Virus record (IMG/VR): IMGVR_UViG_3300044846_001198
Span: 1 to 30,922 of that record
From: a virus
Length of the DNA: 30,922 nt
Reading direction: 5' to 3' (one strand)
Shown: one piece after another, positions 6,099 to 26,784 of the stretch
How the letters are laid out: each line of letters starts with the position of its first letter
Position numbering within the stretch: the stretch's first letter is position 1
Position numbers and translations under genes: made by a program
Notes under the pieces: model-generated
Database searches by the model: none
What the model saw: the letters and a program-made list of their open reading frames with translations, nothing else
What the model was told of the DNA's origin: nothing

Positions 6099-6482
6099 AT
6101 GGTTTATTTGAATACAAATACTGCGAATCAAGACGCGTGGCTTTCACTCGATGAAGGTCGTCAGTATTTCAACGTTGCGTTCACAAATTACCTTCTTATT
6201 TTAACTTACGAAATGACAGGCGAACAACTCGCACAAGTCGTTACCGTAATAACAGAGAACGAACGTGTCACAAAGATTCGTTTAACAACAGTTGGACTAA
6301 CTGACGCGGGAAAATACAAGTACCAAGTGTACGGACAAAACAGCGCGGTGAATTTAGACCCAACAGATGCTTCCGTAGTTGGTTTGGTTGAACGTGGTTC
6401 AATGATACTATCAAACGGAACAATTTACTTTGACGTTTCAACACCGACAATTCCTGTCGATGTAATATATACAGGCGCATAA
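6099..6482 (+). CDS. Small beta-rich virion protein
   Basis: 127 residues starting MVYLNTNTANQDAWLSLDEG. Strands alternate throughout, with Ig-like wording (GLTDAGKYKYQVYGQNSAVN). The stop and the ATG of the portal gene share one base (TAATG), implying coupled translation. It could be a head decoration, fibre or neck component, and position alone cannot decide. Confidence 0.6.
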   Translation: MVYLNTNTANQDAWLSLDEGRQYFNVAFTNYLLILTYEMTGEQLAQVVTVITENERVTKIRLTTVGLTDAGKYKYQVYGQNSAVNLDPTDASVVGLVERGSMILSNGTIYFDVSTPTIPVDVIYTGA

Positions 6483-8425
6483 TGAGCAACATTCAGCAAA
6501 TAGCATTAAGTCGTTACATACCTACCGAAGCAATCGAAAAAGAAAATCGTGGCGGTTGGATTGATTACGGAAATGACAATCTTTACAGCCAATACTTAAT
6601 TAACCTATACTACAATTCACCAATTCACAACGCGCTAACAAATAGTATCGCGTTTATGATTGAGGGACAAGGAACGGGGACTATTTTAGATAGTGCTTTG
6701 CAAGGTATTTCTTTCGACTTAAAATTGCAGGGTGCGTTTGTTGCTGAGGTTATTTGGTCAATGGACTTTACACGCGTGGTGAAGATTAACCACTTGCCTT
6801 TTGAAAATTGTCGTTTGGCTTACGACAAAGAAGAAGAAGAAATTACGGGTGTTTGGTATTCGAAGGACTGGAGAAATTCAAGAAGCAAGAAAGGTAAACC
6901 CGAATTTATTCCTGCGTTCAATCCTTCAATGGCGCAAGAACAACCGCGTCAAGTGATTTACGCTCACGGAATGATGGCGGGAAGTTCATACTATCCAAAG
7001 CCCGACTATTTCGGTGCGTTGAACTACATTGAACTTTCTCATCAAATGGGAATGTACCACGTCAACAACATTTTGAACGGATTATTTCCTTCTTTCATTA
7101 TAAACTTCTTAAACGGCATTCCGCAAAAAGAAGAACGTGAAGCTATTCGTCGCGAGTGGGAAGAAAGATTGAGCGGAGCGAGTAACGCGGGTAAGTTCTT
7201 AATGACTTTCAACGAAGATCCAACACGCACTCCCGAAATTAAAGACTTCCCTCTTTCAGATGCAGACAAACAATATCAGTTTTTAAGCGAAGAAACAGCG
7301 AAGCAAATTATGGTCGGACACCGCGTTGTTTCACCTCTTATTCACGGAATTAGAGAATCTAACGGCTTCGGAAGTAACAAAGACGAAATGTTGGTTGGTA
7401 TGGAGATATTCAACAACCAAGTTGTCAAGCCATATCAACGTATAATCGAAGACGTGTTCACACCAATTTTAGGCAACGTTGAAATAAAAATGAATAGTGT
7501 ATTCGATGAAGCAATTGTAATCGATTCTACGTCACCTATTGAAGTAATAGACACACCTTCAACAACTGACCCTAACGCGGTAGCTGAAAAGGTTTCAGAC
7601 GTAACTTATAACGGAGCGCAAATTGCTTCCGCTTTAGAGATTGTAGCAAGTGTTAGCGCAGGTACGTTGACACAAGAACAAGCGATTGTATTCTTAGTTC
7701 AATTCTTGGGTCTCGATGTGGACGTTGCGAAGTCTATGTTTCAAACAGGCGGTGACGCGGTGGCTAAATTGTCCGCTCAAAAAAAAAAAGTTGTAACGAA
7801 GAAGGCGAAGTCTGCGGATGTTAAGATAAGCAAGGAACAAAGCGACGCGTGGTTAGCGCACTTACGCGAAAAAGCGGAGTATTTGAACGAGGACGAATGG
7901 CAATTGCTTTCGGATGAAGAAGTAACTAACCCAGACGACGAAGAAAAGTTCCGTTCTGAATTTATGAGCGTTCGCGGTTACGCAAAACCCAACGAAAAGA
8001 GCGAAGAAAAGGATACAGGCTTGTATAAAGTTCGTTACTATTACTCAAAAAATTACACTTGGAAAGAAGGTGAAATGGTAACGCGCGATTTTTGTCAAGA
8101 AATGGTCGCGCTTTCTAAAATGGGAGCGTTGTTCCGTTACGAAGACATTATCGAAATGGGAGGCGACGGAGTAAATGGGCAATTCGCACCTTCTGGAAGT
8201 AGCACCTACTCAATTTGGACGTATAAAGGTGGTGTTTATTGCCGCCACGCGTGGTTCAGAAAGGTATTTTTCCGCAAAAGAAAAGACGGTAAGTTCTTAC
8301 CTAACGACGGATTGAAAAACGACACCGTTGTAACAGGAAAAGTAGCGAACGAATTGTTCCCAAAAGGCGAAGAAGCGGTACGTCCTAACGATATGCCAAA
8401 CAGAGCATCACTAAAATATAAATAA
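6482..8425 (+). CDS. Portal protein fused to a C-terminal domain
   Basis: 647 residues. Residues 1 to about 430 look like a phage portal: GGWIDYGNDNLYSQYLINLY, FMIEGQGTG, HLPFENCRLAYD, then VISPL-type wording (GHRVVSPLIHGIRESNGFGS) and a stem-like region near NNQVVKPYQRIIEDVFTPIL. A Lys-rich linker at about 433-455 leads to a separate domain (about 460-647) with YKVRYYYSKNYTWKEGEM, MVTRDFCQEMV and YKGGVYCRHAWFRKVFFRKR. The linker is coded by 11 A in a row (7779-7789), a good place for slippage: losing one A gives a stop after 437 residues, gaining one gives 447 residues. The portal lies after capsid and tail tube and far from the large terminase, which is unusual. Confidence 0.8.
   Translation: MSNIQQIALSRYIPTEAIEKENRGGWIDYGNDNLYSQYLINLYYNSPIHNALTNSIAFMIEGQGTGTILDSALQGISFDLKLQGAFVAEVIWSMDFTRVVKINHLPFENCRLAYDKEEEEITGVWYSKDWRNSRSKKGKPEFIPAFNPSMAQEQPRQVIYAHGMMAGSSYYPKPDYFGALNYIELSHQMGMYHVNNILNGLFPSFIINFLNGIPQKEEREAIRREWEERLSGASNAGKFLMTFNEDPTRTPEIKDFPLSDADKQYQFLSEETAKQIMVGHRVVSPLIHGIRESNGFGSNKDEMLVGMEIFNNQVVKPYQRIIEDVFTPILGNVEIKMNSVFDEAIVIDSTSPIEVIDTPSTTDPNAVAEKVSDVTYNGAQIASALEIVASVSAGTLTQEQAIVFLVQFLGLDVDVAKSMFQTGGDAVAKLSAQKKKVVTKKAKSADVKISKEQSDAWLAHLREKAEYLNEDEWQLLSDEEVTNPDDEEKFRSEFMSVRGYAKPNEKSEEKDTGLYKVRYYYSKNYTWKEGEMVTRDFCQEMVALSKMGALFRYEDIIEMGGDGVNGQFAPSGSSTYSIWTYKGGVYCRHAWFRKVFFRKRKDGKFLPNDGLKNDTVVTGKVANELFPKGEEAVRPNDMPNRASLKYK
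7779..7789 (+). other. A11 slippage-prone run at the portal domain boundary
   Basis: Eleven consecutive A code the end of a Gln codon and three Lys codons. A minus-one transcript would read KKKL then stop. A plus-one transcript would add about 11 residues then stop. Both would yield a portal of ordinary length without its C-terminal domain. Confidence 0.5.
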
Positions 8426-12180: not shown

Positions 12181-13477
12181 CGTATTGTCCATAACTCGGA
12201 TTCAGTTCGAAGAACATTCGCATCATAATTGCGTCGGCAACGTCGGGACTAATTCCTTCTCGGTTCTTGATTACGTCCTTCGGTGTTACTTGCAACTTTC
12301 CTTCCACGTCAGCTCGGTGTCGTTTAATCATCTCCAGTTCTTTCACGATTTGTTCCTTGCGTCCATTGACAAGAATTGTTATCTTGTTTTCTTCGACGTA
12401 TTGCGCGAGTTTGTAGTAACATTCGCTTTTCAAATTTTGGTATTGCGGTTGTTTTGGTTTTGATCCGTTGACAAACCCTCGACACTTAAGAAAATCAACC
12501 ACTCCACCACCAACACCGTCTTCATCCGCAATAACATCTTGTAACAAAATTGAGTGTTCTTTTGTTACGAGGCGAATCTTGTTCACGACCTCATCTAACG
12601 ACGCTCTGCTCATCTCGATTAAGTCAATAAGTGTTAACCCATTCCAAACGCAGATAATCGTTCTATCCTTTCCAAAACGCGCTATGTCGGCTGTGATATA
12701 TTTCTTTCCTTCAATCAATTCATTGCGGAACATACGAAGCAAATTATCGGTTGAGAATAGTTTGTCGCTGTCGTCGTCGAACTCCCAATTGCCTTCTAAA
12801 AGTCTTTTGCGGTCGTATTCAGGAAGGCGTCTAAGAGATTCAATATAAGCAACCGGTAAGAATGGATTGTCCTGCGGTAACGCTTGCACGAAGGCGCGGT
12901 GTGAAGGTAGTTCGTTGCGGTTGTTCTTCATGTAGAACTCGTTGTAGAGCCAACCCTTCGAAGGATTGCACGACAAGAAACCTTTGGGAATAAGACCAAA
13001 CTCGTTCAACTTAAAACGACAACGCGAATGCACGATGTTGACCGCCTTTTCGCTTACTTCGGATACCTCATCTATGAAGTAGTCTGTGAGCTCCATCGAT
13101 CCAAGTTGGTCGAAGTTTGGATTTGACGGATAGCTAAACAAATCTTTTAGCACTATTTCACTTCCGTTGAAGAACTTAATTATGTTCGATTGACCGTTGT
13201 ATGTGTAATGTTTGTCTGCAACTAAACCAAAGTCTTGCGCTGTTTCAAAGAAGGTGTTTAAGGTCGTCTTTTTTAAGGTGTCTAACTTTGCACGTCCAAT
13301 TAAAGAACGTGTCCCTGCGTACTTCAAACGACGTTGTATCTGCCACATACAACCGAACTTCGTCTTTCCACCCCCTGCCGCGCCACCGTATAATAACTGT
13401 TCAACGATGCTGTCGGTGTTCAGGTAGTTCAACGCTTCAATCTGACGCGGCAGGTATGTCGGTTTATAAGGTGTCAT
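12170..13477 (-). CDS. terL: Terminase large subunit
   Basis: 435 residues with both terminase domains. ATPase: Walker A GGAAGGGKT (31-39), Walker B YFIDE (133-137), coupling-type motif LSCNPS (169-173). Nuclease: TADIARFGKD (Asp264), ADEDGVGGG (Asp318/320) and SPDVADAIM (Asp411/414). It drives DNA into the prohead and cuts it. It is coded on the leftward strand, away from portal and capsid and opposite to the likely small subunit at 22863. It overlaps the methyltransferase stop by 14 bases. Confidence 0.93.
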   Translation of the reverse strand: MTPYKPTYLPRQIEALNYLNTDSIVEQLLYGGAAGGGKTKFGCMWQIQRRLKYAGTRSLIGRAKLDTLKKTTLNTFFETAQDFGLVADKHYTYNGQSNIIKFFNGSEIVLKDLFSYPSNPNFDQLGSMELTDYFIDEVSEVSEKAVNIVHSRCRFKLNEFGLIPKGFLSCNPSKGWLYNEFYMKNNRNELPSHRAFVQALPQDNPFLPVAYIESLRRLPEYDRKRLLEGNWEFDDDSDKLFSTDNLLRMFRNELIEGKKYITADIARFGKDRTIICVWNGLTLIDLIEMSRASLDEVVNKIRLVTKEHSILLQDVIADEDGVGGGVVDFLKCRGFVNGSKPKQPQYQNLKSECYYKLAQYVEENKITILVNGRKEQIVKELEMIKRHRADVEGKLQVTPKDVIKNREGISPDVADAIMMRMFFELNPSYGQYVVG

Positions 13478-14426
13478 TTAGTCGTTGTATTACCTTAAAT
13501 ATCTCATAAGCAACCTGTGGAACGATTGCATTTCCATAACCCTTTATTGATTCTGCTCTCCACTTTGAAAAGGTAATTCCGTCCAGTTCGGTGGAAAGCC
13601 CATCATCTCCGCCACAAATCGGGGATTGAGATGGGAACGTGTCCCAAAAGCCTCGTTTATTTGACTGCCTAAATCGTCTCCCTTCCAATTCTCGGTTTTC
13701 CAATGCATATTCTTGTCCGATGTTTTTGGTGTAAGCAGCAGCCCCATACTCAACATTCTCGGCAATGTCATTGAGTGCATTGATCCCTCTTTGACTTGGC
13801 TGCTCTTCATTGTTGCACTCGCATTCGTGCTGTCGAATACTGTTGGTGTTGGTAATAAATGCTGCATCTTCCTTCCTTGTATTACATCGTTCAAACTCGC
13901 TCCGTAACCCTCCGATGTTTTCCCCGGCTCTTGCGCTCTTGGAGTAGGCCACAAACCATATTCGGTCTCTTCGGTGTGGCGCACCGACGGAACAAGCTGG
14001 CAATAATATCGGTTGTACTTCGTACCCTTGACTTTCCAAGTCAACGCACACTTCTTCGAAGACCATTCCCCCATTCCAATTAGTAAGTCCACGAACGTTT
14101 TCGCCCACAACGTAGGTTGGTTTAACTTCTGAAATGACTCTGAGCATATGCGGCCAGAGGTGTCGCTCGTCCTCTTTCCCAAGTCGCTTTCCTGCGCTTG
14201 AGTAAGGTTGGCATGGAAACCCTCCTGTGAGTATGTCAATTGTTCCTCGGTGAATAGAGAAATCTGTCTTTGTGATATCTTCATAACTAATTGAATTTGG
14301 AAAATAATGACTTAAAACTTTGCGAGGGAAAGGCATCCATTCGCAGTGAAAGATGTTATCCCATCCCATCCATTCAGCGGCTAAATCGAAGCCACCGATT
14401 CCGCTAAACAACAATCCGTGATTCAT
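13464..14426 (-). CDS. DNA (cytosine-5) methyltransferase
   Basis: 320 residues with the ordered C5-methylase motifs: I LFSGIGGFDLA (6-16), IV GGFPCQPYS with catalytic Cys72, VI ENV (109-111), VIII APHRRDRIWFVA (149-160) and X GYGNAIVPQVA (296-306). The variable target-recognition region (about 165-290) is the part that also codes another protein in a second frame (13544-14284). The enzyme methylates cytosine in a sequence context not readable from the gene. It probably shields phage DNA from host restriction. No partner endonuclease is seen. Confidence 0.95.
   Translation of the reverse strand: MNHGLLFSGIGGFDLAAEWMGWDNIFHCEWMPFPRKVLSHYFPNSISYEDITKTDFSIHRGTIDILTGGFPCQPYSSAGKRLGKEDERHLWPHMLRVISEVKPTYVVGENVRGLTNWNGGMVFEEVCVDLESQGYEVQPILLPACSVGAPHRRDRIWFVAYSKSARAGENIGGLRSEFERCNTRKEDAAFITNTNSIRQHECECNNEEQPSQRGINALNDIAENVEYGAAAYTKNIGQEYALENRELEGRRFRQSNKRGFWDTFPSQSPICGGDDGLSTELDGITFSKWRAESIKGYGNAIVPQVAYEIFKVIQRLNDTL
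13544..14284 (-). CDS. Second protein coded inside the methyltransferase gene in another frame
   Basis: 246 residues, same strand as the methylase but a different frame, lying wholly inside it. It is not a random shadow: the protein is well behaved, with LWAKTFVDLLIGMGEWSSKK, ALTWKVKGTKYNRYYCQLVP, GLWPTPRAQ, LLPTPTVFDS and near the end LNPRFVAEMMGFPPNWTELP. From memory these segments recur in proteins found overlapping or next to phage C5 methylases. A 741-base open frame inside a conserved gene is also unlikely by chance. Function unknown. A methylase helper or specificity partner is a guess. Start ATG 14284 follows methylase codon 47. Confidence 0.65.
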   Translation of the reverse strand: MKISQRQISLFTEEQLTYSQEGFHANLTQAQESDLGKRTSDTSGRICSESFQKLNQPTLWAKTFVDLLIGMGEWSSKKCALTWKVKGTKYNRYYCQLVPSVRHTEETEYGLWPTPRAQEPGKTSEGYGASLNDVIQGRKMQHLLPTPTVFDSTNASATMKSSQVKEGSMHSMTLPRMLSMGLLLTPKTSDKNMHWKTENWKGDDLGSQINEAFGTRSHLNPRFVAEMMGFPPNWTELPFQSGEQNQ

Positions 14427-23994: not shown

Positions 23995-24576
23995 ATGAGC
24001 ATCAAAGTAAGTATACCTGCCGACTACGCATCGATAAGCGTAAAGCAATACCTTGACTATCACGCAGCCAAAAACGACATAGACAAGTTGGTTAGCATTA
24101 GTAACCTACTGAAAGAACAAGCGGAGCAAATTCCCTTCCAACACTTGCCGACCCTACTCGGCGCTTTTCAAGACACACTTGCAAACGAATCAGCGAAGTT
24201 CTTTGAGACGATTACGATTAAGGATAAGGACTTTGGGTTTATTCCCGACCTATATTCTATCTCAATGGGTGAATACGCGGATATTTCAACGTGGGCAAGT
24301 GACGTTAACGCTAACATCGTGAAGATAATGGGAACGCTATACCGACCTATCGACAAGCGAGTAGGTTCGAAGTATACAATAGTTCCACACAGCAAAGCGA
24401 ATCGTGAACTTGTTGAGGAGTACGTCGAGCAAATGACGCTCGAACAATTCAACGGTGCGATGCTTTTTTTTTCGACTTTACTAACCGAACTAAACAACAC
24501 TTCGCTAGATTATTTGGAGAACGAGGTTCAGAAGTTGACGAAGGAGATGCAGGAATTGACGACCGAGAAGGACTAA
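23995..24576 (+). CDS. Tail assembly chaperone, short form (gpG-like)
   Basis: 193 residues: SIKVSIPADYASISVKQYLD, YHAAKNDIDKLVSISNLLKE, LTLEQFNGAM-type wording (MTLEQFNGAMLFFSTLLTEL). It resembles the first of the two tail chaperones that coat the tape measure protein during tail assembly. Near its end lies a nine-T run (24464-24472) that should allow a -1 shift into a second frame, the classic arrangement of gpG/gpGT. It stands before fibre and neck genes rather than directly before the tape measure. Confidence 0.65.
   Translation: MSIKVSIPADYASISVKQYLDYHAAKNDIDKLVSISNLLKEQAEQIPFQHLPTLLGAFQDTLANESAKFFETITIKDKDFGFIPDLYSISMGEYADISTWASDVNANIVKIMGTLYRPIDKRVGSKYTIVPHSKANRELVEEYVEQMTLEQFNGAMLFFSTLLTELNNTSLDYLENEVQKLTKEMQELTTEKD
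24465..24471 (+). other. Slippery heptamer T TTT TTT
   Basis: Zero-frame codons are CTT TTT TTT TCG. The heptamer fits the X XXY YYZ rule and the run of nine T could also cause transcript slippage. I did not identify a clear downstream stimulating hairpin by eye. Confidence 0.55.
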
Positions 24577-24752
24577 ACCAAGTGTTGGGTCGATACGGTT
24601 GGTATCATCTTTTTATGGAAGCGTGCGGTCGCGACATAACAAAGTTAGACGCAATTACGGAAAAAAGTGCGTGGGAGATATTTACTTATATGACTTACCT
24701 AATAGACTACAATTATGTCGAACGTACAAAGCTACAACGCGCTTATAGATAG
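24471..24752 (+). CDS. -1 frameshift extension of the tail chaperone (gpGT-like)
   Basis: After the T TTT TTT heptamer (24465-24471) the -1 frame is open for 93 codons to TAG 24750-24752. The joined product would have about 252 residues. The extension contains GLNQVLGRYGWYHLFMEACG, RDITKLDAITEKSAWEIFTY, MTYLIDYNYVERTKLQ, which resembles the second tail chaperone of Bacteroidetes phages. It has an internal ATG (24615) that could instead give a separate 45-residue protein. It overlaps the next gene by 38 bases. Confidence 0.6.
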   Translation, partial: FDFTNRTKQHFARLFGERGSEVDEGDAGIDDREGLNQVLGRYGWYHLFMEACGRDITKLDAITEKSAWEIFTYMTYLIDYNYVERTKLQRAYR

Positions 24753-26784
24753 ATTCAAGGCATTCGCCTCTGGACACTTTATATTAAAGACCTTTTCACA
24801 CGGACAGATAGATACAGCAGACTTAGAAAAGTTTACTGAATATCCATTTATGCACGTCGTGCCTTCCAACGTGACGTACGCAAAAGGAATGAAAACGTTT
24901 AGTTTTCAGATTGTCCTTGCGGATCTGCCGAGAGACAAAGACGACAAAGTAGAATTTCAACGCGAGGTACTTTCCGACCTTCAAAGAATCGCAGAAGATT
25001 TAATAGCTGAAATAACAAACCACCGCGTTTTGTTCGGTGACTTAATCACTGTTCAAAATGTAAGCCTTGAACCATTTCTTGAAGAATTTCACAACACGCT
25101 AACAGGTTGGACGATTAGTCTTGACTTGCTTGTGCCTTATTACTGGGACGCGTGTTCTATTCCTGCGGAGTGGAACGACTTCTTTGAAAGTGGAAGCGGT
25201 GGTACAGGTTCAATCTTAACGTTCATTGATTCAATAGTACGCGACGAAAACGGCAACGTTAGTCTTGTAAACGACGAAGCAGAACCTTCTCCTAACTATT
25301 ACTACGGAACGGACGACGAAGGGGTACGCGGTTGGTATGCGCTTCCAGAGGGTGGCGGTCTGACGTGCGAAACAATAGGAACGTGTCAAACGATTATAGA
25401 CATTGAATCAGCTATTGACGACCTTCAGACTGAAATACTTTTGAAGGCAAACACCGCAGATTTAGGCGCGGTTGCTTTCTCGAATGATTACAACGACTTA
25501 GACAACAAGCCAACTATTCCTTCATTAACAGGTTACGTTCCTTACACTGGAGCGACTACCGATGTAGACTTGGGAACGCACAATTTAACTGCGGATCATA
25601 TTGCGTTAAACGTCAGTCCTTCGGGCGCAGGCTTTGTTGTTGGTGCTACACAATGGAACAACACAATAGGAAGCAGCGAAACACTTTTAAAAGGTGGTAC
25701 TGTTTCTCTTAAGAATGGTGTTGACTTAGTAGCTCGCGTAGTGAACAAAGTAACTCCAAACACTACGCTAACGAAAGCAGCCTACCAAGCGGTTAGAGTT
25801 AGCGGAGCGCAAGGGCAAAGACTTGCTGTTGAATTAGCGCAAGCAAACAACGATAATAACTCAGCAGATACAATAGGCATAGTTTGCGAGACGATAGCGA
25901 CGAATCAAGAAGGCTTCATTCAGACTGTTGGTCAACTTGAAAGCATTAATACAACGGGAAGTCTACAAGGTGAAACGTGGGCGGATGGAGATGTACTTTA
26001 CCTTTCTCCAACTACGGCAGGAGCGCTTACTAACATTAAGCCAACAGGCGCGACAGGACACATCGTAGTTATCGGATACGTTGAATACGCTCACGCGAAC
26101 AACGGAAAGATTTATGTGAAGATTATGAACGGTTGGGAGTTGGACGAATTGCACAACGTGTATATCAGTTCACCTGCTAACAACAACGTTTTAACTTACG
26201 AATCTTCTACTTCATTGTGGAAGAATAAAACGGTTGAAACGGCACTTGGGTACACACCATTAGCAGGAGTGCATTCCATTGTACCAATGGCGAGTGGAGA
26301 TGTTACATTTAATGGAATAACTGCAAACATTGGAACTGCGGGACAAAGTGGAAATAGCATTCGATTAACACCCTACATTCCTGCTCAATCAATTACAACG
26401 AGTAATTTGTATATAAACGTTACAACTGCAACGGCAGGCTCATTATGCACTATTGTTGTTTATTCAGATTTAAACGGAGTTCCAAATAATAGACTATACG
26501 AAAGCGCAGATTTAGATTGTTCTACAACAGGTTTAAAAACTGCGACAACATCATTCAGTTTTGTTGCAGGAACTCGTTATTGGATAGGAATAAAAACAAA
26601 CGCTACAATATCAACGAGAGCTGGTTTTACCACTGCATCATCACTACCCTTGAGCGCAAATGTATCATCAACATTTATCTCTTATCAAAAAACAATAACT
26701 TATAGTTCACCAGCACCTAATCCATTAGGAGCAGTAGCATTGAATGCAAGTGGTGGTACAATTGTTTACATAACTAAAGCTTAA
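24715..26784 (+). CDS. Tail fibre/receptor-binding type protein
   Basis: 689 residues. Residues about 1-150 form a tail-attachment-type domain (YNALIDRFKAFASGHFILKT, VSLEPFLEEFHNTLTGWTIS). From about 170 fibre motifs follow: DENGNVSLVNDEAEPSPNYY, NDYNDLDNKPTIP, GYVPYTGATTDVDLG and a beta-rich shaft, then TALGYTPLAG. The last about 170 residues (IPAQSITTSNLYINVTTATA, GTRYWIGIKTNATIST) look like a separate beta-sandwich and are coded in more AT-rich DNA, suggesting later acquisition. It probably contacts the host surface. Confidence 0.7.
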   Translation: MSNVQSYNALIDRFKAFASGHFILKTFSHGQIDTADLEKFTEYPFMHVVPSNVTYAKGMKTFSFQIVLADLPRDKDDKVEFQREVLSDLQRIAEDLIAEITNHRVLFGDLITVQNVSLEPFLEEFHNTLTGWTISLDLLVPYYWDACSIPAEWNDFFESGSGGTGSILTFIDSIVRDENGNVSLVNDEAEPSPNYYYGTDDEGVRGWYALPEGGGLTCETIGTCQTIIDIESAIDDLQTEILLKANTADLGAVAFSNDYNDLDNKPTIPSLTGYVPYTGATTDVDLGTHNLTADHIALNVSPSGAGFVVGATQWNNTIGSSETLLKGGTVSLKNGVDLVARVVNKVTPNTTLTKAAYQAVRVSGAQGQRLAVELAQANNDNNSADTIGIVCETIATNQEGFIQTVGQLESINTTGSLQGETWADGDVLYLSPTTAGALTNIKPTGATGHIVVIGYVEYAHANNGKIYVKIMNGWELDELHNVYISSPANNNVLTYESSTSLWKNKTVETALGYTPLAGVHSIVPMASGDVTFNGITANIGTAGQSGNSIRLTPYIPAQSITTSNLYINVTTATAGSLCTIVVYSDLNGVPNNRLYESADLDCSTTGLKTATTSFSFVAGTRYWIGIKTNATISTRAGFTTASSLPLSANVSSTFISYQKTITYSSPAPNPLGAVALNASGGTIVYITKA

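Follow-up and report, generated by a model that had tools for sequence, protein, structure and literature searches.

The portal ring of phage lambda contains two forms of one protein, gpB and gpB*. There, gpB* arises by proteolysis near the N terminus, unlike what is proposed for the portal considered here.

RNA polymerase holds a 9- to 10-bp RNA:DNA hybrid and slips efficiently at nine A's or T's (PMC5009743). The dnaX gene of Thermus thermophilus undergoes transcriptional slippage at nine A/T, and about half of its product is the short form (PMC5009743, PMC1088944). Slippage of this truncating kind is hard to spot by comparing sequences because the shifted frame contains no new coding sequence (PMC1088944).

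We analyzed a window of 30,922 nucleotides, which is positions 1 to 30,922 of IMG/VR virus record IMGVR_UViG_3300044846_001198. The window carries a run of 11 A's in a portal gene. We propose that RNA polymerase probably slips at this run in a programmed way, of the type that truncates the product, giving truncated and full-length portal; we place the probability of this reading at about 0.7.

The A11 run and the portal gene

A preliminary description, made from the sequence alone, had reported an A11 run at 7779-7789. We confirmed that 11 uninterrupted A's lie there on the + strand, inside an ORF of 647 residues (6482-8425), and that they are read as CAA AAA AAA AAA GTT. We found that the ORF matches PHROG portal families (best E value, 3.7e-57, for PHROG 33693) and that Foldseek matches it to solved portals (best E value, 2e-8). 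Its Pfam Phage_portal match scored 34 bits, under the curated cutoff of 39.1. By sequence and fold match, the product is the portal protein. The features of the gene are as follows.

6482..8425, + strand: portal protein ORF, 647 aa, comprising portal core, helical domain, and C-terminal domain
6482..7471, + strand: portal core, residues 1-330; confidence of the AF2 model mostly good as far as the helix at 300-330
7613..7789, + strand: helical domain, residues 378-436, found only in the long class of relatives
7739..7778, + strand: 40-nt stretch abutting the run on its 5' side and able to fold as RNA; a stem-loop stimulator here is possible, but the evidence is only suggestive
7779..7789, + strand: A11 run, the proposed RNA polymerase slippage site
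7790..8422, + strand: linker and C-terminal domain, residues 437-647, expected to be translated only from unslipped transcripts or after a slip of three
7794..7796, + strand: TAA closing the loss-of-one-A frame; predicted product of 437 aa, 49.0 kDa
7822..7824, + strand: TAA closing the gain-of-one-A frame; predicted product of 447 aa, 50.0 kDa

In the AlphaFold model (mean pLDDT, 70), the portal core ends at about residue 330, confidence is low at 343-373, and helices follow at 378-436. The run sits in a low-confidence linker (residues 432-449), and the C-terminal domain begins at about residue 451. Judging from the model, the linker that holds the run is probably disordered. The run had been described as lying exactly between a portal part of about 435 residues and a C-terminal domain. 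It does precede the C-terminal domain, but the confident portal ends at about 330-340, and residues 378-436 form a separate helical domain. About half of the close relatives have no such helical domain; the run comes after the portal core or the helical domain, whichever is last.

We found no Pfam match for the C-terminal domain, no match among solved sequences, and no fold match in the PDB (best E value, 1.6). Its fold kin in BFVD are parts of uncultured-phage proteins, several of them named XkdF. The domain (7829-8422) has invariant Cys and His residues (C89, C138, and H140 of A4). What comes after the run varies in other clades, with an extra domain in six relatives (L191, L198, L201, L210, L214, and L294). 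The C-terminal extension contains an ART-PolyVal domain in L273 (residues 419-656; E value, 3e-16) and in L276 (residues 821-1057; E value, 2e-15). The run precedes the ADP-ribosyltransferase domain in L276; L273 has only an A8, farther down.

Dinucleotide shuffles of the window gave a mean of 7.4 overlapping A9 matches on both strands, against 4 observed, and the observed count was reached in 86 of 100 shuffles. The window is AT rich and A9 is common in its shuffles, so the A11 run alone is unsurprising by composition. Its notable feature is conservation, not rarity of this kind.

One other A/T run of at least 9 is present in the window.

24464..24472, + strand: T9 homopolymer, in ORF 23995-24576; outside the portal gene, a supporting case

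This ORF is overlapped in the -1 frame by 24465-24749 (95 codons). We found that the T9 is kept in 80 of 80 relatives and that the -1 frame at it is open for 92-96 codons in 79 of them and for 64 in the remaining one. The site lies upstream of a 689-aa ORF. From its sequence, the layout resembles the G/GT frameshift of a tail-assembly chaperone, or a slippage site; none of 23995-24573, 24465-24749, and 24715-26781 matched a family of chaperones or tape measures. Thus, both long homopolymers of the genome are at likely second-product sites. Elsewhere in the window, a C-5 cytosine DNA methylase is encoded on the - strand (13464-14426; Pfam E value, 5e-44).

Conservation of the run in close and distant relatives

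We searched for relatives of the protein with peptide patterns from elsewhere in the gene, excluding the run, and obtained 80 loci. We found the run uninterrupted in the window and in 79 of these 80; the 80th (L067), which is apparently cut there, also has it. The relatives fall into a long class with A11 and a short class with A10, the latter missing some 75-80 residues ahead of the run. In one long-class locus (L042), the run is one A shorter and the frame is broken, either as a natural variant or as an assembly error.

We then aligned the codons of the 78 rows with an intact frame, leaving out L041, L042, and L067. The three Lys codons of the run are AAA AAA AAA in all 78 rows, and the pair of Val codons after it is only GTA GTT or GTT GTA. 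Among the 17 conserved Lys columns, 5 never vary, and 3 of those are the run; of the 14 columns outside the run, 12 use both AAA and AAG. We scanned synonymous variation in sets cleared of near-identical rows (34 of 39 rows remained in the long class and 32 of 39 in the short class). The least variable 5-codon windows are at the run in the long and short classes alike. The zone of low synonymous variation continues for about 8 codons upstream of the run, a constraint for which slippage by itself would not necessarily account. The long class has a second such region at residues 346-358 (about 7517-7555), adjoining the point where the long and short classes part; this region is possibly a recombination joint.

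Alignment-based searches, whose query peptides likewise excluded the run, reached loci down to about 29% identity. We analyzed 210 loci (the window plus sets of 80, 38, and 91, leaving aside near-duplicates fetched again and part of the listed loci), of which 7 end before the site, leaving 203 informative. The junction of portal and C-terminal domain carries a run of A10, A11, or A12 in 162 of the 203 (85, 76, and 1 loci, respectively), none longer, and the remaining 41 have no run. The base after the run is G in 160 of the 162 and C in 2. The frame is broken at the run in one of the 162, L042.

We grouped the 189 complete ORFs into 56 clusters at 80% protein identity. The run is present in 30 clusters, in all three codon phases (12, 4, and 14 clusters). 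As a point against slippage, it is absent from 26, including the Nonlabens P12024S side, though the fused domain is present there too. A tree built from the N-terminal part of the portal has two halves, in which 27 of 33 and 3 of 23 rows carry the run, and on it we counted at least 9 gains or losses of the run and at least 11 changes of codon phase. Therefore, it is the homopolymer that is kept and not the lysine codons. When a homopolymer in a structural gene outlasts shifts in codon phase, this shows directly that selection acts on the homopolymer as such.

Such runs are rare elsewhere. The flanks of the loci (1.12 Mb) contain 14 A/T runs of at least 10 on both strands; the portal ORFs (383 kb) contain 162 A-runs. 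When KKK occurs elsewhere in the 56 cluster representatives, it is encoded by AAA throughout in only 1 of 28 cases. The preliminary description had suggested looking for A-runs at this site in relatives, and we found them uninterrupted in close relatives and present in deep ones. Its proposal that slippage gives two portal forms thereby passed the comparative part of its test, in close relatives and in deep ones with other codon phases. It also predicted that plain portals would predominate over those with the extra domain, a ratio that could equally be the reverse.

Among isolates, only Nonlabens P12024S/L matches both the portal and the C-terminal domain; in P12024S the domain is fused but there is no run (longest, A6). 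We found no isolated phage with the run (isolate records examined, P12024S and BS-TP3) and no prophage relatives in bacterial genomes. Judged from the nearest isolate only, a phage of Persicivirga, the host would be in Bacteroidota.

Predicted shifted products and RNA structure around the run

The unshifted frame gives a product of 647 residues and 73.4 kDa. The preliminary description had given 437 residues for a minus-one slip and 447 for a plus-one slip, and translation bore out both lengths. The loss-of-one-A product would end in KKK-L and the gain-of-one-A product in KKK-SCNEEGEVCGC. In the window and 79 close relatives, the loss-of-A frame runs 1-2 residues to its stop, counting the AAG that ends the run, and the gain-of-A frame runs 4-12 residues. 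Several distant lineages have a short module (A10 G ATT AAT TTA G) with stops for both frames within 2-4 codons. The arrangement is that of the dnaX type: the long product is in the zero frame, and both other frames have early stops.

Across the 30 run-bearing representatives, we found a shorter distance to the farther of the two stops than elsewhere in the same gene (Kolmogorov-Smirnov [KS] P = 5e-5); the clusters are related, and therefore this and the other P values given here are optimistic. Under synonymous resampling, the P values for stop proximity were 0.76 (+1), 0.39 (-1), and 0.024 (farther of the two). Evidence for stop proximity beyond amino acid constraint is weak, and we dropped the idea that codon choice has been selected for stop codons, as the effect is weak or absent under synonymous resampling.

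We also considered other products of the junction. In 12 of the 30 representatives, the zero frame after the run is Cys rich (3.0 expected). The Cys density of the -1 frame after the run is 9.7% versus 4.5%, and this frame ends in CC, CGC, or CSC in several other representatives (7790-7824 and homologous junctions). We claim no function for the Cys-rich SCNEEGEVCGC tail, and dropped that candidate, because codons of the form T GCT GA yield TGC before TGA. Internal initiation of the C-terminal domain was rejected: none of the 30 representatives has a Met in the 12 residues after the run. Some relatives without the run have EMS, but this is a variant of an [MLIF]S motif with which the domain starts, and we therefore dropped its reading as a start codon.

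We found that the 40 nt immediately upstream of the run have a higher folding potential than control stretches from the same gene (mean rank, 0.26; KS P = 6e-6). A hairpin abutting the run gave P = 0.006 against gene controls; against dinucleotide shuffles it was not significant (P = 0.079). Against synonymous resampling, the hairpin gave P = 0.012, and free folding gave P = 0.0013. On the 3' side, folding was not above that of same-gene controls (P = 0.25), and 8 stretches at or after the run had folding z scores of -1.04 to 1.35. The observed 5' RNA structure is suggestive of a slippage stimulator. By our analysis, the pattern appears to suit a 5' stem-loop in the nascent RNA more than it suits a 3' element that promotes frameshifting by ribosomes.

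A truncated portal could also be made by programmed -1 (or +1) ribosomal frameshifting at the run (A AAA AAA or A AAA AAG type), since every run contains a slippable A7 heptamer and the shifted frame stops soon after it. An A7 would be enough for the ribosome, yet 162 of 162 runs have 10-12 A's, about the length of the RNA polymerase hybrid (PMC5009743). Frameshifting also needs a fixed phase, whereas the codon phase changed at least 11 times on the tree, and it often needs a 3' stimulator, whereas downstream structure is not enriched. We consider it unlikely. Recoding of any kind would be unnecessary if the run were kept as a recombination joint for exchangeable C-terminal modules or as a polylysine linker. 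Modules have indeed been swapped on both sides of the run, and a joint would fit the low synonymous variation about 8 codons upstream. However, the flanks and codon phase vary by clade while the length stays at 10-12, and a lysine linker would tolerate AAG, which occurs at the run in 0 of 78 rows; these explanations seem to us quite improbable.

Replication slippage in the DNA might instead toggle the C-terminal domain between genomes. Homopolymers are readily mutated, and L042 has just such a shortened run with a broken frame, but it is the only such locus among 162 and perhaps an assembly error, which makes phase variation a very improbable account. Chance or AT-rich composition can be given almost no weight: A9 is expected in shuffles of the window, but conservation over deep divergence and the depletion of such runs elsewhere contradict it. 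We thus favor transcriptional slippage at the run.

Proposed mechanism and comparison with known systems

We observed the run itself, conservation that is independent of codon phase, stops in both shifted frames, a position in a linker, and no enrichment of 3' structure. Slippage itself, its rate, the polymerase responsible, and a mixed ring are what we infer. In the model that we propose, a run of 10-12 A's would fill the 9- to 10-bp hybrid, and RNA polymerase would add or lose A's in a share of the transcripts. mRNAs that are unchanged or altered by three A's would give the full 73-kDa portal. On the other mRNAs, translation would stop within a few codons, and the resulting portal, of about 49-50 kDa, would end with KKK in the linker. 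Because stops come early in either shifted frame, the direction of the slip does not matter. Dodecameric portals would accordingly contain both kinds of subunit, with slippage setting the share that carries the C-terminal module.

We suggest tentatively, at somewhat less than even odds, that RNA polymerase slippage acts as a stoichiometry dial in these phages, probably phages of Bacteroidota: a hybrid-length A-run right ahead of a swappable C-terminal module would set the number of module-bearing subunits so that a ring made from one gene carries cargo with its channel unblocked. The device has moved between codon phases repeatedly, and a 5' stem-loop may help it. Relevant to cargo are the ADP-ribosyltransferase domains of two relatives, one of which has the run. 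If the model is true, the mixed composition of portal rings would be programmed when the gene is transcribed, which would be a new means of setting the ratios of virion subunits.

Effector-like domains fused to portal are known from the portal/MuF fusions of polyvalent proteins (PMC5512222); the words slippage and frameshift each occur 0 times there. Searches of open-license papers gave us no description of slippage in a portal gene. Truncating slippage itself is already known.

Among known systems, the tail-assembly chaperone frameshift of phages (lambda G/GT) is like the portal in that a structural gene makes products of two lengths from one mRNA (PMC5009743). The chaperone shift extends the protein, whereas the portal shift would truncate it; the T9 of this window resembles the extending kind. 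The Roseiflexus insertion sequence has an RNA stem-loop 5' of its slippage motif, as is possible at the portal (PMC5009743). Its motif is U5C5 with a strong hairpin and slips in one direction, whereas the portal has a homopolymer and a merely statistical excess of structure. Slippage in Shigella spa33 and mxiA is reported to give truncated products of an injection apparatus, as proposed for the portal (PMC5009743), although these are bacterial type III secretion genes. Thermus dnaX shares with the portal gene a full product in the zero frame, a homopolymer in the coding region, and stops in the other frames that shorten the product (PMC5009743, PMC1088944). It differs in being a cellular replicase gene for which RNA and protein were measured, whereas the gene considered here is that of a phage portal, with a run of 10-12 A's.
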